A stretch of DNA of 64,000 bases, taken from an uncultured Bradyrhizobium sp. (lineage in GTDB: Bacteria > Pseudomonadota > Alphaproteobacteria > Rhizobiales > Xanthobacteraceae). The first letter of the stretch is position 1. Each line of letters begins with the position of its first letter. The stretch is taken from the NCBI RefSeq assembly GCF_947648125.1, contig NZ_CANSMR010000006.1, positions 248,001 to 312,000 on the forward strand, in the 5' to 3' direction. Under the pieces are notes generated by a model. It saw only the letters and a program-made list of their open reading frames with translations. It was not told the DNA's origin and did not search any database. Positions 18,060 to 50,758 of this stretch are shown piece by piece. Both the position numbers and the translations under genes were made by a program.

Positions 18060-18061
18060 TG

Positions 18062-19524: not shown

Positions 19525-20249
19525 CCGAGCCATTCCATCACCTCGCTCACGCTTTCCACCCGCTGCCTCTCGGGCAGCGGCGGCCGCGTGATCATGATGA
19601 CGGGAAGGCCGAGCGTGCGGGCGGCGTCGATCTTGGCGCGCGCGCCACCTCCGCCGGAATTGCGGGCGACGATCCACGCGATGCGACGCGCACGCATCAT
19701 CTCGAGCTCGTTGTCGAGCGTGAATGGCCCGCGCGAGACGATGACGTCGGCACCGGGCAATGGCAGCCTCTCGTCGGGTGGGTCGACGAAACGCAGCGTA
19801 TAGGCATGCTGCGGCTGGCTGCCGAAGGGCGCGATGTGCTGGCGGCCGATCGCGAGGAACACGTTGGCGCGGCTGTCCGGCAAGGCCGCGACCGCCGATA
19901 CGACGTCCGCGACCTCGATCCAGCGATCGTCGGATGTTTTGTCCCAGGGCGCACGTTCGAGCGCGAGCAGCGATGTTGCGGTTTGCGCGCAGGCGGCGAT
20001 CGCGTTGCGGCTCATCTCGGCCGCGAAGGGGTGCGTCGCGTCGATCACATGCGTGATGCCTTCGCGACGCAGATAGTCGGCAAGACCATTGACACCGCCG
20101 AAGCCGCCGATCCGCGTCGGCAGCGGTTGTTCAGCGGGAGCGGCGGTGCGTCCGCCATAGGAATAGACCGCGTCGATGCCCGCGCGTGCGATTGTCGCGG
20201 CAAGCGAACTGGCGTCGGCCGTTCCGCCCAGGATCAGGGCGCGCATCAT
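19500..20249 (-). CDS. cobK: Precorrin-6A reductase CobK, inverted within the operon
   Basis: 249 residues, starting MMRALILGGTADASSLA; the second ATG, 3 bases in, is equally possible. It is an NADPH-dependent enzyme that reduces precorrin-6A to dihydro-precorrin-6. The N-terminal nucleotide-binding motif ILGGTADA, HVIDATHPFAAEMSRNA and RGPFTLDNE are typical. It is the only gene of the corrin series here on the opposite strand. Its ATG and the cobL ATG interlock on the sequence CATG, and its 3' end overlaps cobJ. Its promoter must therefore lie inside cobL coding sequence, or it depends on distant transcription from the minus strand. Confidence 0.93.
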   Translation of the reverse strand: MMRALILGGTADASSLAATIARAGIDAVYSYGGRTAAPAEQPLPTRIGGFGGVNGLADYLRREGITHVIDATHPFAAEMSRNAIAACAQTATSLLALERAPWDKTSDDRWIEVADVVSAVAALPDSRANVFLAIGRQHIAPFGSQPQHAYTLRFVDPPDERLPLPGADVIVSRGPFTLDNELEMMRARRIAWIVARNSGGGGARAKIDAARTLGLPVIMITRPPLPERQRVESVSEVMEWLGHRTCLGA

Positions 20250-30025: not shown

Positions 30026-30952
30026 CTACGACTTGCGATGCCTGGCATTAACCGCGATCGCGGCGGCGGCGGTGCGGTTCTCGACGCCGAGTTTGGCGTA
30101 GATCTGCTCGAGGTGCTTGTCGACGGTGCGTGGGCTTAAGCCCAGGATCTGCGCGATGTCGCGGTTGGTCTTGCCCTTGGAGAGCCAGGACAGCACCTCG
30201 CCCTCGCGGGTGGTCAGGCCGAGCTCGCTGGAGAACTCGGCCGGCATGTCGCCGCTGGTGTCCTTGGCCAGCCGCAGCAGGAATTCGTTGGGCCCGAGCT
30301 TGCCCATGAATTGCAGCCGAAGCTGCTCGCTGCCGGGGAATGTCGCTACCGTCGCGGTCTTCGCCCCGGCCTTGCCTTTCTGCGCCTGGTCAAGCCATTG
30401 CGGCATCGGCTCGGGCAGCACGAAATTGTCGGCGGCGTCGGCGAGCGTATCCGAGAGGAGTCTCTGCGCCTGTGGCGTTGCCCATAGCAGCGTGCCCGAG
30501 CTGTTGACCGCGAGCAGATAGCGGCCGGAGACGTCGAGCGCGGCGCGGGCACTCTGCGTCATCCGCGCGTTGGCGAGATGGACCCGGATGCGCGCCAGCA
30601 TTTCCTCGATCACGATCGGCTTGGTGACATAGTCGACGCCGCCGGCCTCCAGCCCACGCACGATGTGCTCGGTTTCGGCCAGCCCCGTCATGAAGATGAT
30701 CGGCACGCCGTCGAGCCCGGCGTCGCGCTTCAGCCGCCTGCAGGTCTCGAAGCCGTCCATGCCGGGCATCACGGCATCGAGCAGCACGATATCGGGGGTG
30801 ATCTGGTCGACGATGCGCATCGCGGAGGCGCCGTCGAGCGCGACCATCACGGTCATGCCGGCGCCGTCGAGCGCGTCGGTCAGCAGGCGCAACGTCTCGG
30901 GCGAGTCGTCGACGACAAGGGCAACGTCGCGCTTTCGCTGTTCAATGGTCAT
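30026..30952 (-). CDS. Response regulator with LuxR-type DNA-binding domain
   Basis: 308 residues. It has an N-terminal receiver (ALVVDDSPETLRLL; phospho-acceptor D59 in DIVLLDAVMPGMDG; conserved K111 in YVTKP). A middle region of about residues 130-225 resembles a PAS-like sensor domain (GRYLLAVNSSGTLLWATPQAQRLL). The C-terminal LuxR helix-turn-helix starts LTTREGEVLSWLSKGKTNRDIAQILGLS. Its start lies 11 bp inside the 3' end of the permease-kinase gene, so the pair is co-translated and almost surely cognate. It should activate or repress the divergent amide-transporter operon. The middle domain is an unusual addition for a NarL-type regulator and could add a second input. Confidence 0.9.
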   Translation of the reverse strand: MTIEQRKRDVALVVDDSPETLRLLTDALDGAGMTVMVALDGASAMRIVDQITPDIVLLDAVMPGMDGFETCRRLKRDAGLDGVPIIFMTGLAETEHIVRGLEAGGVDYVTKPIVIEEMLARIRVHLANARMTQSARAALDVSGRYLLAVNSSGTLLWATPQAQRLLSDTLADAADNFVLPEPMPQWLDQAQKGKAGAKTATVATFPGSEQLRLQFMGKLGPNEFLLRLAKDTSGDMPAEFSSELGLTTREGEVLSWLSKGKTNRDIAQILGLSPRTVDKHLEQIYAKLGVENRTAAAAIAVNARHRKS

Positions 30953-33900
30953 AGCTGTGCAATGTTTTCAACGTCGCCATATATTGATCAAGATCGAACC
31001 GGTCGATTAGCGTGCGCATCTGGCCGACGAAATCGGCATGTTCGGGACATTCGTTGCCGATCTCGTCGAGCTTGAGCTGGATCGCCCTGATATAGCCGAG
31101 CTGGCCGAGGCTGATCAGCTCTTCGACATATTTCACCGGTGGGCGCGAACCCGTGTCGGGCTTCCATTGCGGGGGTGGAATCTGCTCGGCCTCATATTGC
31201 CACTCGATCTTGAGCAGCTGGCGGATACTCTCGAGTAGCCGCGGGATGTCGATTGGCTTCATCAAATAGCCGTCGTGGAACGGTTGCGCCAGCGGCGAGC
31301 CATGGGCTTCCAGCGCGCTGGCCGAGATCATCAGGATTCGTGCCTGGTGATGGCCTTCGGAGCGCAAGGTTTCAGCAACCGTCCAGCCGTCCATGCCCGC
31401 CATCGAGATATCGAGCAGGAACATGTCCGGCCGGCAATGCTGCGCGAGGGCAAGGCAGCCCGGCCCGTCCGGTGCGCTGAGCAGGATGAAGCCGAGCGGC
31501 GCCAGGATCTCGCGCAGCAGGTCGCGATGCGTCGGGTCATCGTCGGTGATCAGGATGGTCTTGCGCGGGCCGTGATAGCCGTAAACCGGAGCGTCGACCG
31601 GCGCATCGCGGCGTGGATTGGTGACCTCGGAGAGCAACAGCTTGACGCGGAAGGTGCTGCCCGTGCCGACCGTGCTCAGGACCTTGATGTCGCCGCCCAT
31701 CACGCCCGCGAGCAGGCGGCTGATGGTCAGGCCAAGCCCGGTGCCGGTCTGCGGCTGAGTGACGCCGAGCGCGCCGCGCTCGAAGGGCGCGAAGATCCGC
31801 TCGAGATCGTCGGGCTGGATGCCCGGCCCGGTATCGATCACCTCGAACTCGGCGACAGGGCTGCGGTAATGCACGATGAATTGCACCTTGCCGGTCTGCG
31901 TGAACTTGATCGCGTTCGAGAGCAGGTTGATCAGGATCTGCCGCAGCCGCTTCTCGTCGGCATAGACCACGAGGGGCAGCACGGCCGGCCGCCTGAACAC
32001 GAAGTCGATGCCCTTGGCCGCGGCCTGCAGGCGGAACATGCCGACCAGCTGCTCAAGGAAGTCGTTTAGCCGCACCTCGTCGCGCGACAGATAGAGACGG
32101 CCGGCCTCGATCTTGGAGATGTCGAGGATGCCGTCGATCAGTCCCGACAAATGGTCCGCGCTCCGACGGACCACGCGCACTTGCCCGCGTGGCCGCACCT
32201 GGAGGCTGTCGTCCTGCTCCAGCAGCTGCGCGTAGCCGGAGATCGCGTTCAGCGGCGAGCGGAGCTCGTGGCTGAGACCGACGACGTATCGGCTCTTGGC
32301 GAGATTGGCGGCCTCGGCGACTTCCTTGGCACGCTGCAATTCGGCATCGGTGCGCTTGTGGGCGTCAATCTCCTGGATCAGCAGCGTGGTCTGGCGGCGT
32401 GTTTCGTCTTCCGCGGCGCGCCGGCTCTGTTGCGCCAGCACGAACAGCCAGGCGACGACGCCGATGATCAGGGTCAGCGCAAAGAACACCTTCCACAGCA
32501 CGTCGGCCAGCAATTCGTTGGCATGCACGGCCGCGGTGGTCTGCAGGTAGATCAGGCCGAGCACCAGCGCCACGAGGCCGGCCGAGACCGCGAACACGCC
32601 GAGGTAATGGCCGAGCTGCGAGTTGATGCGGGCGTAGATCGGCTGCGGCATCACTTTGCCCAAGGCGTCCGACACTTGCGCGCCGATCCGCCCATGCGGC
32701 TTGCAGAGGTCGTGGCAGCGTGCGTCGAGCGAGCAGCACAATGAGCAGATCGGGCCGGCATAGGCCGGGCAGGCGGCCATGTCCTCGGGCTCGAACGCAT
32801 GCTCGCAAATACAGCACTGGATCGATTCAATGTTCTGCCAGCTCCGCTTCGGCTTGCGGGCGATGTAGTACTTGCCGTCGGTCGCCCAGGCAATCAGGGG
32901 AGCCGTGATGAAGGCGACCGCAAGCGCGACGAAGGCGGACAGCGCTTTCGCGGTCGGGCCGAACAGGCCGTAGAACGCGCTGATCGAGACCACAGTCGCG
33001 ATCGTCATCGCGCCGACGCCGACCGGGTTGATGTCGCAGAGATGGGCGCGCTTGAACTCGATGTGCTGCGGCCGCAAGCCGAGCGGCTTGTTGATGACGA
33101 GATCGGCGACCAGCGCACCGACCCAGGCGATCGCGACATTCGAGTAGAGCGCCAGCGTCTGCTCCAGCGCCTTGTAGACGCCGATCTCCATCAGCAGCAG
33201 CGCGACGACGACATTAAACACCAGCCACACCACGCGGCCGGGATGCGAATGGGTGAGGCGGGAGAAGAAGTTCGACCAGGCGATCGAGCCGGCATAGGCA
33301 TTGGTGACGTTGATCTTGACCTGCGACAGGATCACGAAGGTCCCGGTCAGCGCCATTGCGAGATCCGGCTGCGACAGCACGTAGCGGAAGGCTTCGAGAT
33401 ACATGTTGGCCGGCTCGGCCGCGTGCTCCGCCGAGACGCCGTGGCTGAGCGCGAAGAAGGCCAGGAACGAGCCGGCCAGCAGCTTGAGCGCGCCGAGCAC
33501 GATCCAGCCGGGACCGGCAGACAGCAACGCGATCCACCAGGCCTTTCGCGAGGTGCGGCGGTCGCGCGGCAGGAAGCGCAGGAAGTCGACCTGCTCGCCG
33601 ATCTGCGCGACCAGCGCGAACACGACGGAGGCCGCCGTGCCGAACAGCAGGAGATCGAGGTTGCCCGCGGGGTCGCCGTGCTCGCCGGCGAACTTGCGCC
33701 ACTCGGTGAACGAATGCGGATTGGCCCAGGCGATCGCCGCGAACGGCATGATGTGGAGGATCACCCACAGCGGCTGGGTCCAGAGCTGGAAGCGGCTGAT
33801 CAGCGTGATGCCGTAGACGACGAGCGGAATGATCACGACCGCGCTGATCAGGTAGCCGATCGGCCGCGGGATGCCGAAGCACATGTCCAGCGCGCTGGCC

Positions 33901-34310
33901 AGGATCACGGCCTCGATCGCGAAGAAGATGAAGGTGAAGGAGGCGTAGATCAGCGAGGTGATGGTCGAGCCGATATAGCCGAAGCCGGCGCCGCGGGTCA
34001 GCAGGTCGATGTCGATGCCGCTTTTCGCGGCATGGTAGGCGATCGGCAGTCCGCAGAGGAAGATGATGACGCTGACGACCAGGATCGCGGCCGAGGCGTT
34101 GATCGCGCCGTAGTTCAGCGTGATGGTGCCGCCGATCGCTTCCAGTGCGAGGAAGGAGATCGCGCCGAGCGCGGTGTTGGCGACGCGGGCGGCGGACCAG
34201 CGCCGCGCGCTCTTGGCGGTGAAGCGCAGCGCGTAGTCTTCCAGCGTCTGGTTGGCGACCCATTGATTGTATTGGCGCCTGACGCGGTCTATCCGCTGCC
34301 GCCCTGCCAC
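30942..34310 (-). CDS. NCS1 permease-histidine kinase-receiver fusion (transporter-like sensor)
   Basis: 1122 residues from a GTG with AGGAG 8 bases ahead and an in-frame stop upstream. Domain order: residues about 25-480 resemble the purine/cytosine (NCS1) permease family, with about 12 hydrophobic helices. Residues 499-536 hold nine cysteines (C499, 500, 502, 514, 522, 525, 526, 532, 536), a likely metal-binding module. Two more helices lie near 570-590 and 605-627. The histidine kinase follows, with phospho-acceptor H681 in LSHELRSPLNA, N-box LINLLSNAIKF and G-boxes DTGPGI and GTGLGL. The receiver has D967 in FLLDISMAGMDGW. A C-terminal helical tail of about 80 residues ends it. The permease part probably senses, or transports and senses, a nitrogen compound; neighbouring genes suggest urea, formamide or another short amide. 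Ligand and transport activity are inferred. Confidence 0.88.
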   Translation of the reverse strand: MAGRQRIDRVRRQYNQWVANQTLEDYALRFTAKSARRWSAARVANTALGAISFLALEAIGGTITLNYGAINASAAILVVSVIIFLCGLPIAYHAAKSGIDIDLLTRGAGFGYIGSTITSLIYASFTFIFFAIEAVILASALDMCFGIPRPIGYLISAVVIIPLVVYGITLISRFQLWTQPLWVILHIMPFAAIAWANPHSFTEWRKFAGEHGDPAGNLDLLLFGTAASVVFALVAQIGEQVDFLRFLPRDRRTSRKAWWIALLSAGPGWIVLGALKLLAGSFLAFFALSHGVSAEHAAEPANMYLEAFRYVLSQPDLAMALTGTFVILSQVKINVTNAYAGSIAWSNFFSRLTHSHPGRVVWLVFNVVVALLLMEIGVYKALEQTLALYSNVAIAWVGALVADLVINKPLGLRPQHIEFKRAHLCDINPVGVGAMTIATVVSISAFYGLFGPTAKALSAFVALAVAFITAPLIAWATDGKYYIARKPKRSWQNIESIQCCICEHAFEPEDMAACPAYAGPICSLCCSLDARCHDLCKPHGRIGAQVSDALGKVMPQPIYARINSQLGHYLGVFAVSAGLVALVLGLIYLQTTAAVHANELLADVLWKVFFALTLIIGVVAWLFVLAQQSRRAAEDETRRQTTLLIQEIDAHKRTDAELQRAKEVAEAANLAKSRYVVGLSHELRSPLNAISGYAQLLEQDDSLQVRPRGQVRVVRRSADHLSGLIDGILDISKIEAGRLYLSRDEVRLNDFLEQLVGMFRLQAAAKGIDFVFRRPAVLPLVVYADEKRLRQILINLLSNAIKFTQTGKVQFIVHYRSPVAEFEVIDTGPGIQPDDLERIFAPFERGALGVTQPQTGTGLGLTISRLLAGVMGGDIKVLSTVGTGSTFRVKLLLSEVTNPRRDAPVDAPVYGYHGPRKTILITDDDPTHRDLLREILAPLGFILLSAPDGPGCLALAQHCRPDMFLLDISMAGMDGWTVAETLRSEGHHQARILMISASALEAHGSPLAQPFHDGYLMKPIDIPRLLESIRQLLKIEWQYEAEQIPPPQWKPDTGSRPPVKYVEELISLGQLGYIRAIQLKLDEIGNECPEHADFVGQMRTLIDRFDLDQYMATLKTLHSYDH

Positions 34311-34385
34311 TCGCTCTTACTCCTGGTCCACGATGCTTCGATCGCGGGCAAATCCCGTACCAAAAACCTACGTCGCTATTTTGCG

Positions 34386-34423
34386 GTGCAGTATACGCGA
34401 TCTCACGTATCAGTGCGCTGCAC
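34386..34423. promoter_or_regulatory. Nested dyad in the sensor / amide-transporter divergent promoter
   Basis: An inner inverted repeat ATACG-N8-CGTAT (34393-34410) is enclosed by GTGCAG (34386) and CTGCAC (34418). It is in the 168-bp spacer between the divergent sensor and substrate-binding protein genes, about 70 bp before the latter. It is a good candidate site for the LuxR-type regulator; this is inferred from symmetry and position only. Confidence 0.5.
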
Positions 34424-34478: not shown

Positions 34479-35741
34479 ATGTCAGACGAAACCAAACCAG
34501 GCCTGAAGTCTCCGCTCCGGCGCAAGCTCTTGATGGGAATGGCGGCTTTGCCGGCCGTTTCGATGCTGGGCCGTCCGGCATTTGCCGACGTTCCTGCAAC
34601 CTCCGCGGTCAACACCACGGGTCTTGCAGTCACCGATAGCGAAGTCACGGTCGGCATCCTGCACTCGGTGACCGGCACCATGGCGATCTCGGAGACCGGA
34701 TCGGTCGAGGCCGAGAAGCTCGCGATCGAGCAGATCAACGCCGCCGGCGGCGTGCTCGGCCGCAAGATCAAGTTCATCCAGGAAGACGGTGCGAGCGACT
34801 GGCCGACCTTCGCGGAAAAGGCCAAGAAGCTGCTGGTCAATGACAAATGCGCTGCCGTGATGGGCTGCTGGACCTCGGCCTCGCGCAAGGCGGTGCTGCC
34901 GGTGTTCGAGCAGTACAACGGCATGCTGTACTACCCGACCTTCTATGAAGGCCTCGAGCAGTCCAAGAACGTGATCTACACCGGCCAGGAAGCGACGCAG
35001 CAGATCATCGCGGGCCTCGACTGGGTCAACAAGACCAAGGGCGCCAAGAGCTTCTATCTGCTCGGCTCGGACTACATCTGGCCGCGCACCTCGAACAAGA
35101 TCGCGCGCAAGCACATCGAGAACCATCTGCAGGGCTGCAAGGTGGTCGGCGAGGAATACTTCCCGCTCGGCTCGACCCAGTTCAACTCGGTGATCAACAA
35201 GATCAAGCTGACCAAGCCCGACGTGATCTATGCGATCATCGTCGGCGGCTCCAACGTCGCGTTCTACAAGCAGCTCAAGGCGGCCGGCATCGACCTGTCG
35301 AAGCAGACGCTGCTGACGATCTCGGTCACCGAGGACGAGATCGACGGCATCGGCGGCGAGAACATCGCGGGCGCCTATGCCTGCATGAAATACTTCCAGT
35401 CGCTCGACAATCCGAACAACAAGGCCTTCGTGCCCGCGTTCAAGAAGATGTGGGGCGAGAAGACCGTGATCGGCGACGTGACGCAGGCCGCCTATCTCGG
35501 CCCGTGGCTGTGGAAGTTGACGGTGGAGAAGGCGGGCTCCTTCGACATCGACAAGATCGCGGCGGCTTCCCCCGGCGTCGAGTTCAAGGGTGCGCCGGAA
35601 GGCTATGTCCGGATCCACGAGAACCATCACCTCTGGTCGAAGACCCGTGTCGGACGCGCCAAGGCCGATGGCCAATATGAGCTGATCTACGAGACCGCCG
35701 ATCTCGTCGAGCCGGATCCGTTCCCCAAGGGCTACCAGTGA
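34479..35741 (+). CDS. Urea/short-chain-amide ABC transporter substrate-binding protein (UrtA/FmdD-like)
   Basis: 420 residues. The N-terminus carries a twin-arginine-like export signal (PLRRKLLMGMAALPAVSMLG) and a cleavage region near residue 34. The mature protein is of the urea/amide branch of type I binding proteins: VGILHSVTGTMAISETGSVE, AVMGCWTSASRKAVLPVFEQ, YYPTFYEGLEQSKNVIYTGQ and YFPLGSTQFNSVINKI are very close to UrtA and AmiC-like sequences. With downstream fmdA and fmdB it corresponds to the amide-binding FmdD protein of the Methylophilus formamidase cluster. It heads a seven-gene operon divergent from the permease-kinase sensor. Urea cannot be excluded as a ligand. Confidence 0.9.
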   Translation: MSDETKPGLKSPLRRKLLMGMAALPAVSMLGRPAFADVPATSAVNTTGLAVTDSEVTVGILHSVTGTMAISETGSVEAEKLAIEQINAAGGVLGRKIKFIQEDGASDWPTFAEKAKKLLVNDKCAAVMGCWTSASRKAVLPVFEQYNGMLYYPTFYEGLEQSKNVIYTGQEATQQIIAGLDWVNKTKGAKSFYLLGSDYIWPRTSNKIARKHIENHLQGCKVVGEEYFPLGSTQFNSVINKIKLTKPDVIYAIIVGGSNVAFYKQLKAAGIDLSKQTLLTISVTEDEIDGIGGENIAGAYACMKYFQSLDNPNNKAFVPAFKKMWGEKTVIGDVTQAAYLGPWLWKLTVEKAGSFDIDKIAAASPGVEFKGAPEGYVRIHENHHLWSKTRVGRAKADGQYELIYETADLVEPDPFPKGYQ

Positions 35742-35779: not shown

Positions 35780-35807
35780 GTGGCGTGGACGTCATCGTCC
35801 ACGCCAC
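35780..35807 (+). other. Perfect hairpin between binding protein and first permease genes
   Basis: GTGGCGTGGACG-TCAT-CGTCCACGCCAC is a perfect 12-bp stem with a 4-base loop, without a T-run, 38 bp after the binding-protein stop. Such hairpins protect the upstream mRNA segment or dampen read-through, giving more binding protein than permease. Confidence 0.75.
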
Positions 35808-35862
35808 GGAACGAGCGCCGCTTGACCGGCGGCGCGCGCCCCTTGGAATGACGGAGGACCAG

Positions 35863-36789
35863 ATGTTCGGCGACTATTCGATCAGCGATCTCGGCGCCAT
35901 CCTTGCGATGCAGGGATTTGCCGGGCTCATCCTGTTCTCCGTCTATGTGCTGATGGCGCTGGGGCTTGCCGTCATCTTCGGCCAGATGGGCGTCATCAAC
36001 ATGGCCCATGGCGAGTTCATGATCCTGGGCGCCTACGTCACCTGGATGACGTCGAACGCCGTGCAGCACGTCGCGCCCTGGCTGTTCCCCGGCTACTTCT
36101 TCATCGCGATGATCCTGGCGTTCATCGCCTCCGGCGCGCTCGGCATGCTGGTCGAATGGGCGCTGATACGCCATCTCTACAAGCGTCCGCTCGATACGCT
36201 GCTGGCGACCTGGGGGCTCAGCCTGATCCTGCAGCAGGCCTATCGCTCGATCTTCGGCGCGCGCGAGGTTGGCGTCGAGCTGCCGGACTGGATGATGGGA
36301 TCCTGGCAGGCCACCGACTCGATCCAGATCCCGATCAACGGCATGTTCGTGATGGCGCTGACCATGCTGATCACGATCGCGGTCGCCTACGTGCTGTTCT
36401 GGTCGAGCTGGGGCAAGCAGGTGCGCGCCGTGGTGCAGAACCGCGTGATGGCGGGCGCCGTCGGCATCAATACCGAGAAGGTCGATCGCTACACCTTTGG
36501 TCTGGGTTGCGGCATCGCCGGGATCGCGGGCTCGGCCTTCACCATGATCGGCTCGACCGGGCCGACCGCGGGCCAGCTCTATATCGTCGATACCTTCCTG
36601 GTCGTCGTGTTCGGCGGCGCAGCCTCGCTGTTCGGTACCATCGCCTCCGCCTTCTCGATCTCGCAGACCCAGTCGACGCTGGAGTTCTTTCTGTCGGGAT
36701 CGATGGCGAAGGTGATCACGCTGCTCACGATCGTCGCGATCCTGATGGTGCGTCCGCAGGGGCTCTTCGCGCTCAAGGTCCGCAAATAA
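35863..36789 (+). CDS. Urea/amide ABC transporter permease (UrtB-like)
   Basis: 308 residues starting MFGDYSISDLGAIL, chosen because GGAGG lies 5 bases ahead; an ATG 15 bp upstream is the alternative. It is a LivH-type membrane protein with about eight helices. The region GLAVIFGQMGVINMAHGEFMILGAYV is the typical LivH/UrtB signature. ALIRHLYKRPLDTLLATWGLSLILQQ and GSTGPTAGQLYIVDTFLVVVFGG are further conserved blocks, and the end reads MVRPQGLFALKVRK. It forms a heterodimer with the next gene's product in the inner membrane. Spacing to the next permease gene is 17 bp. Confidence 0.9.
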   Translation: MFGDYSISDLGAILAMQGFAGLILFSVYVLMALGLAVIFGQMGVINMAHGEFMILGAYVTWMTSNAVQHVAPWLFPGYFFIAMILAFIASGALGMLVEWALIRHLYKRPLDTLLATWGLSLILQQAYRSIFGAREVGVELPDWMMGSWQATDSIQIPINGMFVMALTMLITIAVAYVLFWSSWGKQVRAVVQNRVMAGAVGINTEKVDRYTFGLGCGIAGIAGSAFTMIGSTGPTAGQLYIVDTFLVVVFGGAASLFGTIASAFSISQTQSTLEFFLSGSMAKVITLLTIVAILMVRPQGLFALKVRK

Positions 36790-36806
36790 GAACAAGCAGG
36801 CAGGTC

Positions 36807-37943
36807 ATGGTCATCAACTCGCGCTTCTTCAATCGCTCCGAACTGCTCGGCTTCCTTGCGCTCGCGGTGCTGCTGCTTGTCATCCTGCCGCTGTCGCTGG
36901 ATATCTTCCGCCTCAACCTGGTCGCCAAATATCTGACCTACGCCTTCGTCGGCATCGGGCTCGTGCTGTGCTGGGGCTATGGCGGCATCCTCAGCCTGGG
37001 GCAGGGCGTGTTCTTCGGCCTCGGCGGCTACTGCATGGCGATGTACCTCAAGCTCGAGGCATCCTCGGTCGCGAACACCAAGATCCAGTCGACGCCGGGC
37101 ATCCCGGACTTCATGGACTGGAATCAGATCACGCAGCTGCCGCTGTTCTGGAAGCCGTTCCATAGTTTTCCGGTCACGGTGCTGGCGATCTTGCTGGTTC
37201 CCGCCTTCTTCGCGCTGATCATCGGCGCTGCGATGTTCAAGCGCCGGGTCGGCGGCGTGTACTTTGCAATCATCACGCAAGCGATCGCCGCGATCCTCAC
37301 CATCCTGATCGTGGGGCAGCAGGGCTACACCGGTGGCATCAACGGCATCACGGATCTGCGCACGCTGCACGGCTGGGACATCCGTACCGATCACGCCAAG
37401 TTCATTCTGTATTTCGTCGAGGTTGTGCTGCTGTTCGGATGCATCGTTGCCGCGCAATTCATCCGGCTGACAAAACTCGGGCGCATCCTGGTGGCGATGA
37501 GGGAGCAGGAGGATCGCGTGCGCTTCTCCGGTTACAGCGTCGCCAATTTCAAGATCTTCGCGTTCTGTGCCGCGGCGGTGTTCGCTGCGATCGGCGGCGC
37601 CATGTTCACGCTCGAGGTCGGCTTCATGTCGCCGTCCTTTGTCGGCATCGTGCCGTCGATCGAGATGGTGATCTACACGGCGGTCGGCGGCCGGATGTCG
37701 ATCTTCGGCGCGGTCTGGGGCGCGTTGCTGGTCAATTTCGCCAAGACCAGCCTCTCGGAATCCTTCCCGCAGCTCTGGCTGTTCGGCCTCGGCGCGCTGT
37801 TCATCGCGGTTGTGCTGGCCTTCCCGAACGGGCTCTCCGGCATCTGGGCTGATCATATCCAGCCCCGCATCGATCGCCTGTTCGCATCACGCAAATCGAA
37901 ATCGGCGGCCGGCCTGATCGCCGACGGCGCACCGGCCGAGTGA
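36807..37943 (+). CDS. Urea/amide ABC transporter permease (UrtC-like)
   Basis: 378 residues starting MVINSRFFNRSELLGF. It is a LivM-type permease with a longer N-terminal part and about ten hydrophobic segments. Conserved blocks are GLVLCWGYGGILSLGQGVFFGLGGYCMAMYL, GGVYFAIITQAIAAILTILI, GYTGGINGITDL (typical UrtC), and GRILVAMREQEDRVRFSGYSVANFKIFAF. It is the second permease of the amide/urea transporter. It is followed by GAGGAGGG and the ATPase gene 12 bp on. Confidence 0.9.
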   Translation: MVINSRFFNRSELLGFLALAVLLLVILPLSLDIFRLNLVAKYLTYAFVGIGLVLCWGYGGILSLGQGVFFGLGGYCMAMYLKLEASSVANTKIQSTPGIPDFMDWNQITQLPLFWKPFHSFPVTVLAILLVPAFFALIIGAAMFKRRVGGVYFAIITQAIAAILTILIVGQQGYTGGINGITDLRTLHGWDIRTDHAKFILYFVEVVLLFGCIVAAQFIRLTKLGRILVAMREQEDRVRFSGYSVANFKIFAFCAAAVFAAIGGAMFTLEVGFMSPSFVGIVPSIEMVIYTAVGGRMSIFGAVWGALLVNFAKTSLSESFPQLWLFGLGALFIAVVLAFPNGLSGIWADHIQPRIDRLFASRKSKSAAGLIADGAPAE

Positions 37944-37955
37944 GGAGGGACCATC

Positions 37956-38711
37956 ATGCTCGTCGGCAATCAGCCCAAGGACTTCCTGCTCGCGGTCTCC
38001 GGACTCACCGTGTCCTTTGACGGCTTCAGGGCCGTCAATGATCTCTCCTTCTATGTCGAGGAGAACGAGATCCGCGTCATTATCGGCCCGAACGGCGCCG
38101 GCAAGACGACCGTGCTCGACCTGATCTGCGGCAAGACCCGGGCCACGTCTGGCTCGATCCAGTTCCGTGGCCAGGAGCTGACCCGGCTGCGCGAGAACGA
38201 GATCGTGCAGGCCGGCGTCGGCCGCAAGTTTCAGACGCCGTCGGTGTTCGAGGACCTCACCGTGTTCGAGAACCTCGAAATCTCCTACCCGCGCGGCCGC
38301 ACCGTGTTCGGCTCGCTGACCTTCCAGCGCGACGCCGCGGTCAAGCAGCGGGTCGAGGAGGTCGCCGAGATGATCTTCCTGAAGGACCGGCTCAATACCT
38401 ATGCCGACCAGCTCAGCCACGGCCAGAAGCAGTGGCTCGAGATCGGCATGCTGCTGATCCAGGACCCGGACCTCTTGATGCTGGACGAGCCGGTCGCCGG
38501 CATGAGTGTGTCCGAGCGCGCCAAGACTGCCGAGCTGCTCAACCGCATCATCAAGGACCGTTCGGTGCTGGTGATCGAGCACGACATGAAGTTCGTCGAG
38601 GACATCGCGCACAAGGTGACGGTGCTGCACCAAGGCCAGATCCTGTCCGAGGGAACGATGGAGCACGTCAAGAACGATCCAAAAGTGATCGAAGTTTACC
38701 TGGGCCATTAA
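37956..38711 (+). CDS. Urea/amide ABC transporter ATP-binding protein (UrtD-like)
   Basis: 251 residues. It is a LivG-type ATPase with Walker A GPNGAGKTT near residue 48. The UrtD-type switch region is VGRKFQTPSVFEDLTVFENL, the signature motif LSHGQKQWLEIGMLL near 160, and Walker B LLMLDEPVAGM. LSHGQKQWLE rather than LSGGQQ is a feature of UrtD proteins. The conserved histidine is in VIEHDMKFVEDIA. Together with the next gene it drives transport on the cytosolic face. Spacing to that gene is 11 bp. Confidence 0.92.
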   Translation: MLVGNQPKDFLLAVSGLTVSFDGFRAVNDLSFYVEENEIRVIIGPNGAGKTTVLDLICGKTRATSGSIQFRGQELTRLRENEIVQAGVGRKFQTPSVFEDLTVFENLEISYPRGRTVFGSLTFQRDAAVKQRVEEVAEMIFLKDRLNTYADQLSHGQKQWLEIGMLLIQDPDLLMLDEPVAGMSVSERAKTAELLNRIIKDRSVLVIEHDMKFVEDIAHKVTVLHQGQILSEGTMEHVKNDPKVIEVYLGH

Positions 38712-38722
38712 GGAACACCGCG

Positions 38723-39412
38723 ATGCTGGCAATCAATGATCTTCACGTCGCCTACGGCCAGAGCGAGGTGCTGCACGGCCTCAATGTCTCCGTCGCGCCC
38801 AACGAGATCGTCGCGATCATGGGCCGCAATGGCATGGGCAAGACCACGCTGATGAAGTCGCTGATGGGCATCCTGCCGGCCAAGAGCGGCAAGGTGACCA
38901 TGGACGGCACCGAGCTTGGCGCGATGAAGAGCTACGAGCGGGTGGCGAAGGGGCTCGCTTACGTGCCGCAGGGCCGCATGATCTTCTCCACCATGACGGT
39001 GAAGGAGAACATCGAGACCGGGCTCGTGGTGTCAGGCGGCTCCGAAGTGCCCGGCGACATCTATGAGCTGTTTCCGGTGCTGCTCGAGATGAAGGGCCGC
39101 CGCGGCGGCAATCTCTCGGGCGGACAGCAGCAGCAGCTCGCGATCGCCCGCGCGCTCGCCACCAAGCCGAAGGTGTTGCTGCTGGACGAGCCGACCGAAG
39201 GCATCCAGCCGTCGATCATCAAGGATATGGCCCGCACCCTGAAGCGGATCCGCGACGAGCGGGGGCTGTCGATCGTCGTCTCCGAGCAGGTGCTGAGCTT
39301 CGCGCTCGACATCGCCGACCGCGTGCTCGTCATCGAGAACGGCGAGATCGTCCGCGACGATCCGCGCGCCAGCGTCGATGCCGCGCAGATATCCAAATAC
39401 TTGTCTGTCTAA
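38723..39412 (+). CDS. Urea/amide ABC transporter ATP-binding protein (UrtE-like)
   Basis: 229 residues from MLAINDLHVAYGQSEVL after AAGGAAC. It is a LivF-type ATPase: Walker A GRNGMGKTT near residue 36, LAYVPQGRMIFSTMTVKENI, signature LSGGQQQQLAIARAL, Walker B LLLDEPTEGIQPSI, and the EQVLSFALDIADR segment. RNGMGKTTLMKSLMGI and the PQGR(M/E)IF motif are typical of UrtE. It is the last transporter gene. A dispersed palindrome (39415-39463) separates it from fmdA, which could reduce but not abolish read-through. Confidence 0.92.
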   Translation: MLAINDLHVAYGQSEVLHGLNVSVAPNEIVAIMGRNGMGKTTLMKSLMGILPAKSGKVTMDGTELGAMKSYERVAKGLAYVPQGRMIFSTMTVKENIETGLVVSGGSEVPGDIYELFPVLLEMKGRRGGNLSGGQQQQLAIARALATKPKVLLLDEPTEGIQPSIIKDMARTLKRIRDERGLSIVVSEQVLSFALDIADRVLVIENGEIVRDDPRASVDAAQISKYLSV

Positions 39413-39499: not shown

Positions 39500-40729
39500 A
39501 TGCCTGATACACTGATCAAGGTCGATCTCAGCAAGTCGGCCTATGAAAACGACAAGATTCACAACCGCTGGCATCCCGAGGTTCCGATCGTCGAGTGGGT
39601 CAGCCCCGGCGACGACTTCATCATCGAGACCGTCGACTGGACCGGCGGCTTCATCAAGAACAACGATTCCGCCGACGACGTGCGTGACATCGATCTGTCG
39701 ATCGTGCACTTCCTCTCGGGTCCGATCGGCGTCAAGGGCGCCGAGCCCGGCGATCTCCTCGTCGTCGACTTGCTCGACGTCGGTCCGCTGAAGGAGAGCC
39801 TGTGGGGCTTCAACGGCTTCTTCTCCAAGCAGAATGGCGGCGGCTTCCTCACCGACCATTTCCCGCTGGCGCAGAAGTCGATCTGGGACATCAAGGGCCT
39901 CTACACCTCGTCGCGTCACATCCCGGGCGTGAATTTCGCCGGCCTGATCCATCCCGGCCTGATCGGCTGTCTGCCCGATGCCAAGATGCTGGCGGCCTGG
40001 AACAAGCGCGAAGCCGAGCTGATCGCGACCAACCCGACCCGTGTGCCGGGTCTCGCCAATCCGCCGTTCGCGCCGACCGCACATGCCGGCCAGGCCAAGG
40101 GCGACGTCAAGGCCAAGATCGGCCTTGAGGGCGCTCGCACTGTGCCGCCGCGCGAGCATGGCGGCAATTGCGACATCAAGGATCTTTCGCGCGGTTCGAA
40201 GATCTATTTCCCGGTCTATGTACCGGGCGGCGGGCTTTCGATGGGCGACCTGCATTTCAGCCAGGGCGACGGCGAGATCACCTTCTGCGGCGCCATTGAG
40301 ATGGCCGGCTGGCTGCACATCAAGGTCGACGTCATCAAGGACGGCGTCTCGAAATACGGCATCAAGAACCCCGTGTTCAAGCCGTCGCCGATCACGCCGA
40401 ACTACAAGGACTATCTGATCTTCGAGGGTATCTCGGTCGACGAGGCCGGCAAGCAGCACTATCTCGACGTCCACATCGCCTATCGCCAGGCTTGCCTGAA
40501 CGCGATCGAGTATCTGAAGAAGTTCGGCTACTCCGGCGCCCAGGCCTATTCGATCCTCGGCACCGCGCCATGTCAGGGCCATATCTCCGGCGTGGTTGAC
40601 GTGCCCAACGCCTGCGCCACACTGTGGCTGCCGACGGAGATCTTCGACTTCGACGTGATGCCGTCGTCGGCGGGACCGATCAAGCATATCAAGGGCGACG
40701 TGCAGATGCCGATCTCTCCCGACAAGTGA
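39500..40729 (+). CDS. fmdA: Formamidase / acetamidase FmdA
   Basis: 409 residues, the standard length, after a GGGGAG ribosome-binding sequence. It belongs to the FmdA/AmdA amidohydrolase family that hydrolyses formamide and other short amides to ammonia and a carboxylate. Features: LIKVDLSKSAYENDKIHNRWHPEVP at the N-terminus, DFIIETVDWTGGFIKNNDSADDVRDIDL, GPIGVKGAEPGDLLVVDLLDVGP, REHGGNCDIKDLSRGSKIYFPV, and MGDLHFSQGDGEITFCGAIEMAG with family-conserved acidic residues. It is cytosolic, with no signal peptide. Its place behind a urea/amide importer and ahead of fmdB mirrors the Methylophilus fmd cluster. It supplies ammonium under nitrogen limitation. Confidence 0.95.
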   Translation: MPDTLIKVDLSKSAYENDKIHNRWHPEVPIVEWVSPGDDFIIETVDWTGGFIKNNDSADDVRDIDLSIVHFLSGPIGVKGAEPGDLLVVDLLDVGPLKESLWGFNGFFSKQNGGGFLTDHFPLAQKSIWDIKGLYTSSRHIPGVNFAGLIHPGLIGCLPDAKMLAAWNKREAELIATNPTRVPGLANPPFAPTAHAGQAKGDVKAKIGLEGARTVPPREHGGNCDIKDLSRGSKIYFPVYVPGGGLSMGDLHFSQGDGEITFCGAIEMAGWLHIKVDVIKDGVSKYGIKNPVFKPSPITPNYKDYLIFEGISVDEAGKQHYLDVHIAYRQACLNAIEYLKKFGYSGAQAYSILGTAPCQGHISGVVDVPNACATLWLPTEIFDFDVMPSSAGPIKHIKGDVQMPISPDK

Positions 40730-40825: not shown

Positions 40826-41173
40826 ATGCCGATCTACGAATATCTCTGCAACGACTGCGGCCCGTTCACCGACATGCGGCCGATGGCGGAATGCGACCTG
40901 CCGCAGGACTGCCCGCAATGCGAGACGACGTCGCCGCGGGTGATTCTGACCGCGCCGGCGTTCTTCTGCATGCCGTCGGATAAACGCAAGGCGTACGCCA
41001 CGAACGAGCAGAGCCGGCACGCGCCGAAGACGCTCGATCAGTACAAGGCCGCGCACGGCCCGGGCTGCGGCTGTTGCTCTACGGACAAGAAGAAGCCGGC
41101 ACGGCTGATGACCAAGACCAAGAGCGGCGCCAAGGGCTTTCCGACCGCGCGTCCCTGGATGATCAGTCACTGA
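40826..41173 (+). CDS. fmdB: FmdB family zinc-ribbon protein
   Basis: 115 residues from MPIYEYLCNDCGPFTDMRPM after AAGGAA. The FmdB zinc ribbon uses CNDC (residues 8-11) and CPQC (near 31-34). A second cysteine group, GCGCCSTDKKK, near residue 79 is not part of the basic FmdB ribbon. The C-terminal KSGAKGFPTARPWMISH is typical of amidase-linked members. FmdB in Methylophilus is described as a regulatory protein for formamidase; biochemical function remains unclear. Gap to fmdA is 96 bp. Confidence 0.88.
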   Translation: MPIYEYLCNDCGPFTDMRPMAECDLPQDCPQCETTSPRVILTAPAFFCMPSDKRKAYATNEQSRHAPKTLDQYKAAHGPGCGCCSTDKKKPARLMTKTKSGAKGFPTARPWMISH

Positions 41174-41355: not shown

Positions 41356-42141
41356 TCAGGCCTGTTCGGCGACCTTCAAGGCCTCGGTGCGGATCTCCTC
41401 GACCAGCCGCTCCTTCAGGGCGACGAATTCGGGCGTGGTCTTGATCTTGTAGGAGCGCGGATGCGGCAGGTCGACCGCGATCTCGGCCTTGATGCGGCCG
41501 GGACGCGCGCTCATCACAATGACCCGGCTGCCGAGGAAGATCGCCTCCTCGATGTCGTGGGTGACGAACAGCACCGTCTTCTGGTCGCGCTCCCAGATCC
41601 CGAGCAGCATCTCCTGCATCAATGCGCGCGTCTGGTTGTCGAGCGCGCCGAACGGTTCGTCGAGCAGCAGGATCTTCGGATTATTGGCCAGCGCCCGGGC
41701 GATCGCCGTGCGCTGCTGCATGCCGCCCGACAGCTGCTTGGGCCAGTGGTTTTCGAAGCCCGATAGCCCGACGCGGCGGATGAAGGCGTCGGCGACGTCA
41801 TGGCGCCCTTGTTGCGGAACGCCGCGCTCGCGCAGGCCGAAGGCGATGTTCTCGCGCACGGTCAGCCACGGAAACAGGGTGTAGGACTGAAACACCATGC
41901 CGCGATCGGCGCCGGGGCCGGTGACCTCACGGCCATCGAGCGTGACGCGTCCGCTGGTCGGCCGGTCGAGCCCGGCGATGATCCGAAGCAGGGTGGACTT
42001 TCCGCAGCCGGACGGGCCGAGGATGGTGACGAAGTCGTTGTCGCCGACATCGAGCGTGGTCGGCTCGAGCGCCCTTGTCGGCGCGTTGCCGGCGCGGGCG
42101 GGGAAGGTTCGCGAGACCTGATCGATCCTGAGCGCGGTCAT
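41356..42141 (-). CDS. ABC transporter ATP-binding protein, nitrate/sulfonate/taurine type
   Basis: 261 residues, starting MTALRIDQVSRTFPARAGNA at an ATGA overlap with the permease gene. Motifs: Walker A GPSGCGKST near 44, Q-loop MVFQSYTLFPWLTVRENIAFG, signature LSGGMQQRTAIARAL, Walker B ILLLDEPFGALDNQTR, and VTHDIEEAIFLGSRV. This is the TauB/SsuB/NrtD subfamily. The substrate is set by the binding protein at 42990-43934. It is the last of three transporter genes running in the same direction as hutF and hutC. Confidence 0.92.
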   Translation of the reverse strand: MTALRIDQVSRTFPARAGNAPTRALEPTTLDVGDNDFVTILGPSGCGKSTLLRIIAGLDRPTSGRVTLDGREVTGPGADRGMVFQSYTLFPWLTVRENIAFGLRERGVPQQGRHDVADAFIRRVGLSGFENHWPKQLSGGMQQRTAIARALANNPKILLLDEPFGALDNQTRALMQEMLLGIWERDQKTVLFVTHDIEEAIFLGSRVIVMSARPGRIKAEIAVDLPHPRSYKIKTTPEFVALKERLVEEIRTEALKVAEQA

Positions 42142-42911
42142 GCGAGCTTCCATGGGAACAGCCAGGCGTTGAACGCCTTGAACAGGAAGTCGGAAATCAG
42201 GCCGATCAGCCCGATGACGATGATGCCGAAGATGATCTGGCCGGTGTTGAGCAGCGCCTGGCTGTCGGTGATCATGTGCCCGATGCCGGACGACGAGCCG
42301 ATCAGTTCGGCCACGATGACGTAGGTCCAGGCCCAGCCCAGCACCAGCCTCAGGATCTCGGCGATCTCGGGCGCGGCGGAGGGCAGCAGCACGCGGCGGA
42401 TGACACCGCTGTCGCGGGCGCCGAGCGTGTAGGCGGCTTCGACCAGGTCGCGCCGTGTGGCGCCCACCGTGACGGCCACCATCAGGATGATCTGGAACAC
42501 CGCGCCGATGAAGATCACCAGCAGCTTTTGCAGCTCGCCGATGCCCGCCCACAGGATCAACAGCGGGATGAAGGCCGATGCCGGCAGATAGCGCGCAAAG
42601 GAGACGAAGGGTTCGAGGAAGGCCTCGACCGGCTTGTAGGCGCCCATCAGCACGCCGAGCGGCACGGCGATGATAGCTGCAAGGGCAAAGCCGCCGATGA
42701 CGCGCCAGATCGTCATGCCGATGTCGAACAGGAAGCCTTGCTTGGCGAGCAGCTCATAGCCTTCCTGCACCATAGTCAGCGGGTTGGCGAGGAATGTCTT
42801 TGATACATGGCCGCCGAACGTCGCCCAGGACCAGAGGGCGACGAACAGCACGAAGAAGGCGAGGCCGTAGGTCACGCGCTGCTTCGATGTTGTGGGCTCG
42901 AGGGGACGCAT
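42138..42911 (-). CDS. ABC transporter permease, nitrate/sulfonate/taurine type
   Basis: 257 residues from the ATG at 42911; a TTG one codon upstream is possible. There are six membrane helices. The BPD_transp_1 loop near residue 185 (EILRLVLGWAWTYVIVAELIGSSSGIGHMI) contains the coupling-helix region. RYLPASAFIPLLILWAGIGELQK and GATRRDLVEAAYTLGARDSGVIRRVLLPSA are typical of TauC/SsuC/NrtB. Its stop overlaps the ATPase gene start. A 78-bp gap to the binding-protein gene holds only a short CGGGACCGG/CCGGTCCCG inverted repeat (42934-42972 region) that may fold in the transcript. Confidence 0.9.
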   Translation of the reverse strand: MRPLEPTTSKQRVTYGLAFFVLFVALWSWATFGGHVSKTFLANPLTMVQEGYELLAKQGFLFDIGMTIWRVIGGFALAAIIAVPLGVLMGAYKPVEAFLEPFVSFARYLPASAFIPLLILWAGIGELQKLLVIFIGAVFQIILMVAVTVGATRRDLVEAAYTLGARDSGVIRRVLLPSAAPEIAEILRLVLGWAWTYVIVAELIGSSSGIGHMITDSQALLNTGQIIFGIIVIGLIGLISDFLFKAFNAWLFPWKLA

Positions 42912-42989
42912 CAATTGATCCAGGCGTATCTCATGTGCCGGTCCCGCTCGCTTTGCCGCGAGGCGGGACCGGCCGAAATGATGGCTGCG

Positions 42990-43934
42990 TTACTTGATGA
43001 AGCTCGCGTCGTAGATGTCTTCGACCTTCGGCGCGGCCTTGATGATGCCGACCTCGAGCAGGAGCTCGGCGGCATCCTTGTTGAAGGTGAGGAAGTCGCC
43101 GGCGAAGAATTTCTGGTTGGCGGCCTTGTCCTGCCAGCGCAGGTACTTTGCCGAGTTGCCGAACTGCTCGCCGGACTGCTTCACGTCGGCGCCCATGATC
43201 TCATAGGCCTTGGCCTGATCCTTGGCGATCATGTCGAGCGCCTCGAAATAGCTGTTGGCCAGCGCCTGGGCCGCCTTCGGATTGTCGGTCAGGAATTTCG
43301 GGGTGCAGCCGAACGTGTCCATCACAATCGGATAATCGAGCGTGGTGGCGATGATCTTGCCCTTGTCGGGCGCGGCGCGCACCGTCGACAGATAAGGCTC
43401 GTAGGTCATTGCGGCGTCGTTCTGGCCGGAGACGAAGGCCTGCGCCGCGGCGGCCGGCTCAAGATTCACGACAGTGACATCCTTCACCGAGAGGCCGTTC
43501 TTCTTCAGCATCCAGGCCAGCGCGAAGTAGGGCGAGGTGCCCGGCGCCGATGCCGCGACGGTCTTGCCCTTCAAGTCCTTGATCGCGGCGACGTCGTTGC
43601 GCACGGCCATGCCGTCGGCGCCATAGCTCTTGTCGAGCTGGAAGATCTGCTTGGTCGCGACGCCATTGGCGTTCCAGGAGATCCAGGTCTCCACCGTCGT
43701 TGCCGCGCACTGGATGTCGCCCGAGGCGATCGCGAGATGCCGGTCCTTCTGCGGAATCTTCTTCAAGGTCACGTCGAGGCCGTTCTTCTTGAAGATGCCG
43801 GCCTCCTTGGCGAGCGTCAGCGGCGCGAAGCCGGTCCAGCCGGAGATGCCGACGCCGACCTTGACGTCATCCGCGAACGCGGCGGTGGACGCGAGCAAGG
43901 CTGCGATTGCGGGCAATAGCTTGAACGAACGCAT
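42990..43934 (-). CDS. ABC transporter substrate-binding protein, NMT1/TauA type, next to hut genes
   Basis: 314 residues from MRSFKLLPAIAALLASTAAFA, preceded by AAGGGG. The signal peptide ends at about residue 21 (AFA). The mature protein shows the two-lobed NMT1/SBP_bac_9 pattern: KVGVGISGWTGFAPLTLAKEAGIFKKNGLDV, VETWISWNANG, NDAAMTYEPYLSTV and GFLTDNPKAAQALANSYF-like sequence. Ligands in this family include taurine, aliphatic sulfonates, riboflavin precursors and pyrimidines. Its genes follow hutC in the same direction, so uptake of histidine, urocanate or an imidazole derivative is possible but unproven. A separate dyad upstream suggests its own promoter. Confidence 0.88.
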   Translation of the reverse strand: MRSFKLLPAIAALLASTAAFADDVKVGVGISGWTGFAPLTLAKEAGIFKKNGLDVTLKKIPQKDRHLAIASGDIQCAATTVETWISWNANGVATKQIFQLDKSYGADGMAVRNDVAAIKDLKGKTVAASAPGTSPYFALAWMLKKNGLSVKDVTVVNLEPAAAAQAFVSGQNDAAMTYEPYLSTVRAAPDKGKIIATTLDYPIVMDTFGCTPKFLTDNPKAAQALANSYFEALDMIAKDQAKAYEIMGADVKQSGEQFGNSAKYLRWQDKAANQKFFAGDFLTFNKDAAELLLEVGIIKAAPKVEDIYDASFIK

Positions 43935-44031
43935 GATTGTCGACCCCTTGGACGATGGATTGAACCTGTTGATGTCTTCACGTCGGTCGCGGCGGATTGC
44001 CGCATCAGAAACGTTGGTGGATGGTGGCCCA

Positions 44032-44046
44032 TGATGCATTGCATCA
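44032..44046. promoter_or_regulatory. Perfect dyad upstream of the TauA-type transporter genes
   Basis: TGATGCA-T-TGCATCA has perfect 7-bp arms around one base. It is in the hutC to binding-protein spacer, about 100 bp before the transporter start. It is unlike the HutC-type palindrome at 46201, hinting at an independent regulator. Confidence 0.45.
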
Positions 44047-44067
44047 AATATGCCGCGCAAGCCGTCT

Positions 44068-44811
44068 TCAGCCTCCTTTGAAGCGAGCCACCAGCCGGTG
44101 CGTCTCGCCTGGATAATGCAGCCGCACCGCCGTCACCGTGCGCGCGCTGCGCCAGGTGTAGCGGTCGATCACGAGGCAGGGCGCGCCGACCGCGATGCCG
44201 AGCGCCTTCGCCGTGCGATCGTCCGCGACAACCGCACTGATCGTGTGTTCCGCCTCGGTCCACGGCACATGATGCAGCAGCCATGATCCCGGCGGCTCGC
44301 GCGCAAAGTCCGCCGTCGCGGCTTCCGGAACCGTGGAGAGATCGATCAGCCTGTCCTCGACAGCAAACGGCACATTGTCGGCGCTGTGCCGGCAGGCGAT
44401 CGCGATCACCTTGCCGGCCGTGCTCACCCCGAGCCGGGCACGATCGGCCGCGGTCGCGGTGCGCCGTCGGCAATCGATCAGCTGATAGCCGTAGCTGCGG
44501 CCGAGCGCGGTGATCTCGGCACGCATGTCGGCAATCTTGAGCACCGCCGACAGGTGCTGCGGGCGGCGTACGAATGAGCCGGCACGCCGCCGCCGCTCGA
44601 TCAGGTCAGCCTGCGCCAGTTCGGACAACGCCTTGTTCACCGTCATGCGCGAGCAGCGATAGCGCGCCATTAACTGGTGTTCGAACGGGATACGGTGACC
44701 CGGGGGCCATTCGCCGGTCAGGATCCGCGTCTCGATATCGAGCCTGATCCGCTTGTAGAGCGTCGGCTTGTTGGCCGCGGCAGGGCGGGCCCGATCGGAG
44801 GCGAGGCTCAT
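44068..44811 (-). CDS. hutC: HutC, GntR-family repressor of histidine utilisation
   Basis: 247 residues from MSLASDRARPAAANK at an ATGA overlap with hutF. The N-terminal GntR winged helix (LYKRIRLDIETRILTGEWPPGHRIPFEHQLMARYRCSR, residues about 18-55, then NKALSELAQADLIERRRRAGSFV) is followed by the UTRA effector domain (SWLLHHVPWTEAEHTISAV and CLVIDRYTW). HutC repressors bind urocanate and leave their operator. The perfect palindrome at 46201-46220, between hutF and hutI, is the obvious target and would control both hut transcripts, including hutC itself. Confidence 0.92.
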   Translation of the reverse strand: MSLASDRARPAAANKPTLYKRIRLDIETRILTGEWPPGHRIPFEHQLMARYRCSRMTVNKALSELAQADLIERRRRAGSFVRRPQHLSAVLKIADMRAEITALGRSYGYQLIDCRRRTATAADRARLGVSTAGKVIAIACRHSADNVPFAVEDRLIDLSTVPEAATADFAREPPGSWLLHHVPWTEAEHTISAVVADDRTAKALGIAVGAPCLVIDRYTWRSARTVTAVRLHYPGETHRLVARFKGG

Positions 44812-46166: not shown

Positions 46167-46200
46167 TTTTCCATGCCGGCTGGACAGAACTCCGACACGA

Positions 46201-46220
46201 TTATATGTCTAGACATATAA
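46201..46220. promoter_or_regulatory. HutC-type operator, perfect 20-bp palindrome
   Basis: TTATATGTCT/AGACATATAA is a perfect palindrome placed 34 bp before hutF and 31 bp before hutI in the 85-bp divergent spacer. Its AT-rich sequence stands out from the surroundings. The TGTCTAGACA-type core suits a GntR/HutC dimer. One site can shut off both divergent promoters. Confidence 0.8.
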
Positions 46221-46251
46221 GTCAAGCATCCCACCTCAAGGGGACGATCGC

Positions 46252-49022: not shown

Positions 49023-49040
49023 CCGACAGGGACATCCGTC

Positions 49041-50711: not shown

Positions 50712-50717
50712 GATAAC

Positions 50718-50753: not shown

Positions 50754-50758
50754 CCGCC

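Follow-up and report, generated by a model that had tools for sequence, protein, structure and literature searches.

We analyzed a 64,000-nucleotide stretch of DNA (the window) from an uncultured Bradyrhizobium sp. (contig NZ_CANSMR010000006.1, positions 248,001 to 312,000). Here, a single 1122-residue reading frame joins a permease domain of the NCS1 type, a cysteine-rich (Cys) module, two extra transmembrane (TM) helices, a histidine kinase and a receiver, and its gene is divergent from genes for urea/short-amide import and formamidase. This fusion probably represents a family of urea and amide sensors that has been overlooked, and we consider it likely that it works as a transceptor-type sensor kinase, through which ligand gates activation of the urt-fmd operon. 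A preliminary description of the window had also proposed an amide/urea sensor of NCS1-type architecture, and this part of it gains strong support from gene neighborhoods, stand-alone relatives, fold and a predicted operator. Its further suggestion, that the cysteines link metal or redox state to signaling, is not supported.

The kinase gene starts with GTG, and homologues align from about residue 1 of its product, in keeping with the single frame first described. Since the identical architecture is found in many species, a chance or assembly fusion is ruled out. Matches to HisKA, HATPase_c and Response_reg all lie above the Pfam cut-offs, and none of H681, D923/D924, D967 and K1018 varies among 25 aligned proteins (window copy included). 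The protein thus has all that defines a hybrid HisKA histidine kinase (i.e. HisKA, HATPase_c and a receiver, with phospho-acceptor H and D), and the kinase is complete, as originally noted. Hydropathy points to ∼14 membrane helices; the final pair separates the Cys module from the kinase. These two, also recognized earlier, appear as additional hydrophobic segments within residues 562–630 and as helices 565–592 and 598–651 of the predicted model.

Direct searches gave no family for the N-terminal domain. Neither residues 1–490 nor residues 1–652 matched Pfam (PF02133 included), and PDB searches with the sequence of residues 1–490 and with profile A2 returned no matches. However, a relative of 44% identity (L138) matches PF02133 at 38.1 bits (cut-off 23.5); relative L139 and the stand-alone permease of L141 lack such a match. 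Profile–profile comparison (hhalign) with the NCS1 family PF02133 gave a probability of 99.0, and the fold of the predicted model is nearest to CodB and Mhp1. SLC5-type rows scored below the NCS1 rows in the fold comparison (DUR3 22.4, CHT1 21.7, SMCT1 20.9), and no SLC5 Pfam match was seen in the fusion protein. With direct searches empty, the NCS1 link is drawn from the intermediate relative, the profile comparison and the structure model, and on these grounds the original call of an NCS1-like permease was right.

In the window, the kinase gene is coupled to a LuxR-type regulator gene and divergent from an importer operon with formamidase, just as the preliminary description had it (Table 1). 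UrtA, UrtB, UrtC and FmdA exceed curated NCBIfam cut-offs, identifying a urt/fmd amide-urea operon. We surveyed three sets of relatives. In the class, residues 1–652 have matches in 27 of 385 genomes, counting the window's own; two of these matches are not full fusions (L029 is partial, and L030 is a 24% NCS1 protein in a 600-residue frame). A collection of named species, with one genome per species, yielded 458 confirmed related loci, and we examined the best 80 of these, among which the closest relatives, at 99% across residues 1–652, are from Bradyrhizobium. In the phylum, a stand-alone query has matches in 52 of 398 genomes; 34 of the 58 matched places were examined, with gene content read by eye. 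No pair of loci in the three sets is 99% alike over 3 kb, although the relatives are not independent events and Bradyrhizobium is strongly represented in the named set. In addition, 529 plasmid records match (342 from Klebsiella), with high redundancy.

Linkage to amide/urea genes was seen at most loci in all three surveys. The gene urtA lies within the fetched stretch at 20 of 25 class loci (17 of those divergent) and at 74 of the 80 named loci (all divergent). Among the six named loci without urtA, one (L129) has fmdA and three (L094, L106, L111) are on contigs that end near the kinase gene. The phylum survey found amide/urea genes at 33 of 34 loci: 19 with fmd-type urtA plus fmdA, 11 with ureABC (UreC at the stretch edge in some), one with another urt set and two with fmdA only, the remaining locus being a bare 4.8-kb contig. 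Several of the urease-linked sensors (L191, L192, L198, L202, L206, L209, L211, L215–L218) are divergent from ureA, and four genomes (G584, G605, G725, G520) hold one amide-type and one urease-type copy. A conjugative IncFIB/IncFII plasmid of K. variicola (L140) carries urtABCDE-formamidase beside a kinase relative. A relative of the regulator follows the hybrid kinase in the surveyed loci; none was found beside two short kinases (L189, L190). As controls, window positions 1–20000 and 44001–64000 gave no matches; a third control, L056, proved unclean, as it holds another amidase cluster.

Stand-alone forms of the permease are found in similar company. In K. pneumoniae the permease gene follows ureG, and on plasmids of A. 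ursingii and A. lwoffii it precedes ureEFG. Moraxella osloensis has it divergent from fmdA-fmdB, Tsukamurella has it near fmdA, and in one Arthrobacter it immediately precedes an aliphatic amidase gene. In Methylovirgula, one group of genes comprises fmdB-fmdA, a fused kinase and its regulator, an amidase and a stand-alone permease; in A. baumannii the genes for the stand-alone permease and the fused kinase are divergent. In M. smegmatis, msmeg_3402 ('cytosine permease', possibly of this clade) and msmeg_3403 (formamidase) are listed among the nitrogen-regulated genes (PMC4222082, PMC4617892). In a tree of 47 rows, one branch (99/99) separates nine stand-alone permeases from 37 fused proteins. 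L154, in which the permease, eight cysteines and two helices precede a different HisKA kinase lacking a receiver, falls beside the stand-alone group (92/92). Its placement and make-up indicate that the permease–Cys–two-helix cassette is modular. With its long outgroup branch, the tree favors neither direction, fusion or loss, over the other. The short variants, L154/L189 (G460) and L190 (G557), are open frames of 894 and 899 residues near fmdA.

A further line of evidence comes from the region between kinase and urtA genes. The palindrome ATACG-N8-CGTAT is present in 58 of 88 kinase-urtA intergenic regions. Among diverse regions it occurs in 26 of 54, whereas no palindrome exceeded two in any of the three shuffled sets. 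When up to two mismatches were allowed, the pattern did not outperform the reversed control (7 versus 12 per strand); hence, we count only the exact site and claim no wider regulon. We then built a matrix from 26 sites and applied it to loci outside the training set (the phylum locus nearest to training, L222, is 90% alike over 11.7 kb, and the next is 84% alike over shorter blocks). Scores of at least 12, which random 20-kb sequences reach in 1 to 11 of 200 cases depending on GC content, were obtained for 17 of 19 fmd-type phylum loci (not L214 or L220), with seven scoring again before fmdA. Neither fmdA-only locus reached this score, nor did L219 or L221. At the six listed stand-alone loci without a fused kinase (L138, L172–L176), scores were 9.7 or less.

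Individual genomes are instructive. In Beijerinckia, an operator (24.6) lies ∼100 bases before urtA on a contig other than that of the kinase, with none at the kinase gene; this genome holds UrtA copies of 85% and 77%, and the Bradyrhizobium genome with an unlinked locus only copies of 42% and lower. In S. meliloti, an operator (18.7) lies ∼95 bases before urtA, with three genes separating it from the kinase gene. The A. baumannii site (25.5) is between the stand-alone permease and kinase genes, and Methylovirgula has sites between fmdA and the kinase gene and before the amidase gene, plus a third, unexplained site (at 12205) by a urtA-like fragment. Separately, the intergenic regions contain a sigma-54-like core, TGGYAC-N5-TTGC, in 30 of 88 cases (the window among them), always reading towards the kinase gene and nearly all in Bradyrhizobium; a narrower pattern (A, C or T after TTGC) is found in 8 of 88. 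As other genera lack this site, we treat it as a side point, although it is plausible that in Bradyrhizobium the synthesis of the sensor itself is under nitrogen control.

In the mechanism we envisage, the NCS1-type domain would bind urea, short-chain amides (formamide, for example) or both. The resulting shift in permease conformation would pass first through the Cys module, probably a zinc-stabilized knuckle lying against the membrane, and then through both extra helices to a kinase that presumably acts as a dimer. H681 would become phosphorylated and, in turn, the LuxR-type regulator, which is predicted to bind the ATACG-N8-CGTAT palindrome and activate urtABCDE-fmdAB and probably its own operon as well. 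The attached receiver may tune or relay the phosphate.

Several observations weigh against this reading. At five of the 25 class loci and two named loci (L063, L100), the fetched stretch lacks urt, fmd and ure genes, and no common theme emerged among the 20 open reading frames around L044, L048, L055, L063, L100 and L141 (one of which is the L141 stand-alone permease). Among the genomes of class loci without urt, three of Tistrella hold UrtA elsewhere (82–83%), G051 holds one of 39% and G326 none. The Tistrella kinase genes have a strong site (24.0), and the unlinked urtA is weakly operator-like (6.2–8.5 bits); L048, L063 and L100 lack the operator. Only three of 11 urease-linked loci score at least 12, one of them before a urtA, and the regulators of the other eight may read another site. 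The stand-alone permeases of a second Arthrobacter and Streptomyces (L139, L174) have no annotated amide/urea gene in view. Nor are the pockets wholly alike, given that F129 is Leu in nine of 10 urt-only sensors and E57 is not common to the stand-alone permeases. The only histidines invariant across the whole protein (25-protein alignment) are 356, 681, 720 and 928; the 25 C-terminal tails thus contain no conserved histidine, no dedicated search for an Hpt protein was made, which leaves the proposed route of phosphate past the attached receiver tentative. Finally, gene linkage would also suit any other signal that follows nitrogen supply.

On an alternative view, the permease domain is a mere anchor, and the kinase senses nitrogen status, ammonium or urt transporter activity instead of a ligand in the NCS1 pocket. 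We compared 75 fused sensors (52 formamidase-linked, 13 urease-linked, 10 with other urt sets) and found no position that discriminates, at 80% in each group, between the formamidase-linked and the urease-linked ones. This speaks for an anchor, and we accordingly do not claim separate ligands. The sigma-54-like site facing the Bradyrhizobium kinase gene is another hint of nitrogen control. On the other hand, E133, Q236, E239, Q330, K332 and N334 are invariant in all 75 sensors, which an anchor would not need, and the L154/L189 cassette sits on a different, receiver-less kinase at a locus that still has fmdA. We regard a mere anchor as unlikely. Of 22 positions examined, 12 are identical in all 75 sensors, and ten vary (52, 58, 129, 130, 137, 226, 229, 232, 233 and 333). 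As a carboxamide group is common to urea and short amides, a single type of pocket could plausibly serve both.

A ligand typical of NCS1 transporters (purine, pyrimidine, hydantoin or allantoin), with the operon induced during purine or ureide breakdown ending in urea, would suit the NCS1 fold and the public annotation of stand-alone relatives as cytosine or allantoin permeases. We find this quite improbable. Purine or allantoin enzymes are not named among the annotated neighbors (L141 is unannotated), whereas urease, formamidase and amidase recur. The CodB pair R216/Y285 corresponds to R245/Y339 of the sensor, but the base-sandwiching aromatics W108 and F204 align with F129 and L233, such that the base-stacking aromatic of TM6 is replaced by leucine; lacking the two-aromatic sandwich, the sensor is not filed as a nucleobase transporter. 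Likewise, Q105 of CodB corresponds to T126, and Q121 of Mhp1 to the invariant glutamate E133. The Na2 side-chain ligands of Na+-coupled NCS1 transporters (T278/T279) correspond to K332/I333.

We lean slightly toward the broader view that an entire NCS1 clade has left nucleobases for urea and short amides. It would provide both the secondary permeases encoded with urease, formamidase or amidase and, through fusion to kinases, the dedicated sensors found in many Pseudomonadota. With lysine at Na2 its cycle would not depend on sodium, and the sensor itself may still transport.

The Cys module was described as having nine cysteines, C499–C536. Eight of these are invariant in 25/25, 41/41 and 75/75 fused proteins, and C500 is not conserved. 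Stand-alone permeases of Klebsiella, Acinetobacter, Moraxella and Streptomyces end in a four-Cys form (CxxC...CxxC), that of Methylovirgula has the full eight-Cys tail, and two Arthrobacter and Tsukamurella have degenerate forms. The module is best read, from these sequences, as a permease tail common to stand-alone and fused forms. That metal or redox state gates the kinase with the transporter as passenger is very improbable, despite the exact eight-Cys spacing in all 75 fused proteins, since four-Cys tails and one eight-Cys tail end permeases that have no kinase and since nitrogen genes are the recurring neighbors. A structural zinc site would be simpler; zinc itself is our guess, as comparison of the Cys profile with PDB gave no convincing zinc protein (one row, E 0.44). 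Residues 495–640 have no Pfam match above a family cut-off (STAC included).

Table 1. Features of the sensor locus (window coordinates)
Feature	Position	Strand	Basis
Hybrid sensor: NCS1-type permease domain, Cys module, two TM helices, HisKA, HATPase, receiver; 1122 residues	30942..34310	-	Open reading frame and translation
NCS1-type permease domain, residues ~31–480	32871..34220	-	
Cys module C499–C536, CxxC-x11-C-x7-CxxCC-x5-C-x3-C	32703..32816	-	Exact spacing, 75/75 fused proteins
Two extra transmembrane helices, residues ~564–630	32421..32621	-	Hydropathy and model helices
HisKA, residues 672–737, phospho-acceptor H681 (codon 32268–32270)	32100..32297	-	PF00512, 56.3 bits
HATPase_c, residues 785–893	31632..31958	-	PF02518, 91.5 bits
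Receiver, residues 919–1029, phospho-acceptor D967	31224..31556	-	PF00072, 66.6 bits
C-terminal tail, residues ~1040–1122, no conserved histidine, no obvious Hpt	30945..31193	-	25 tails aligned
Response regulator, receiver and LuxR-type HTH, overlaps kinase gene by 11 bases	30026..30952	-	PF00072, PF00196 above cut-off
urtA-type binding protein, urea/short-amide ABC importer	34482..35741	+	TIGR03407, 547 bits (cut-off 493)
urtB, urtC, urtD, urtE	35785..39412	+	UrtB TIGR03409, UrtC TIGR03408 above cut-off
UrtD; UrtE	37956..38711; ~38723..39412	+	Named by gene order and ABC sequence
fmdA, formamidase	39500..40729	+	NF045496, 752 bits (cut-off 500); PF03069
fmdB, FmdB-family zinc ribbon protein	40826..41173	+	TIGR02605, NF053663 above cut-off
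Predicted operator ATACGCGATCTCACGTAT, between kinase and urtA	34393..34410	.	Sole exact ATACGYSANNTSRCGTAT match in own genome (8.57 Mb)
Sigma-54-like -24/-12 site TGGTAC-N5-TTGC, reading towards kinase	34348..34362	-	1 in window, 0.2 expected by chance

Beyond fmdB, the window (41356–50711) contains a histidine-utilization cluster (HutH, HutU, HutI, HutF-like and GntR/HutC-like) with an ABC importer, its genes named by reading translations. Histidine breakdown can release formamide, and this neighborhood may be meaningful. Elsewhere in the same genome, outside the window, L056 carries at ∼4.1–12.1 kb (contig C6, ∼314–322 kb) a separate aliphatic amidase, 77–79% identical to the queries, and urt-like ABC genes; the exact operator is absent there. 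A cobalamin riboswitch (101.3 bits) was also seen at window positions 11308–11523 (+).

The published transporter–kinase fusions that we encountered belong to two other families. CbrA, CrbS and RpuS are SLC5/STAC histidine kinases, of which CrbS is a hybrid that controls acetate use (PMC13022988, PMC5715377, PMC9100948). Like these, the sensor described here has an N-terminal transporter domain, a linker and a histidine kinase (PMC13022988); it differs in its NCS1-type domain, its linker of eight cysteines and two helices, the lack of a recognized STAC and the predicted urea/amide ligand. Ks-Amt5, an ammonium transporter fused to a histidine kinase (PMC12918730), similarly uses a nitrogen-compound transporter as sensor domain, with an Amt module and ammonium as ligand. 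CodB and Mhp1 share the fold of the sensor and differ in their Na2 ligands, the TM6 aromatic and the absence of a kinase fusion. Among open-licence papers, screened by title and the beginning of the abstract, we found none on an NCS1–kinase fusion; subscription papers may differ. Within these bounds, NCS1–kinase proteins add a third transporter family to the published SLC5-STAC and Amt types.

Urea/short-amide ABC importers with formamidase have been described as the fmd cluster of M. methylotrophus and as the 'UTS' (UrtABC/AmiF) of Klebsiella CG307 (PMC10781810, PMC13060141). We infer that the K. variicola plasmid locus is the UTS locus. The terms 'histidine kinase' and 'two-component' are absent from the main texts of both PMC10781810 and PMC13060141 (the CG307 preprint). 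Public annotations of the fusion include 'ATP-binding protein', 'response regulator', 'hybrid sensor histidine kinase' and even 'ArcB'. Hence, public annotation offers no specific name for what is likely the regulator of a widespread system of urea/formamide uptake. Its predicted ligand is open to test, and the predicted operator occurs in exact form just once in its own genome. If our reading is true, it would also suggest a role for the 'cytosine' or 'allantoin permease' encoded in urease and formamidase clusters.
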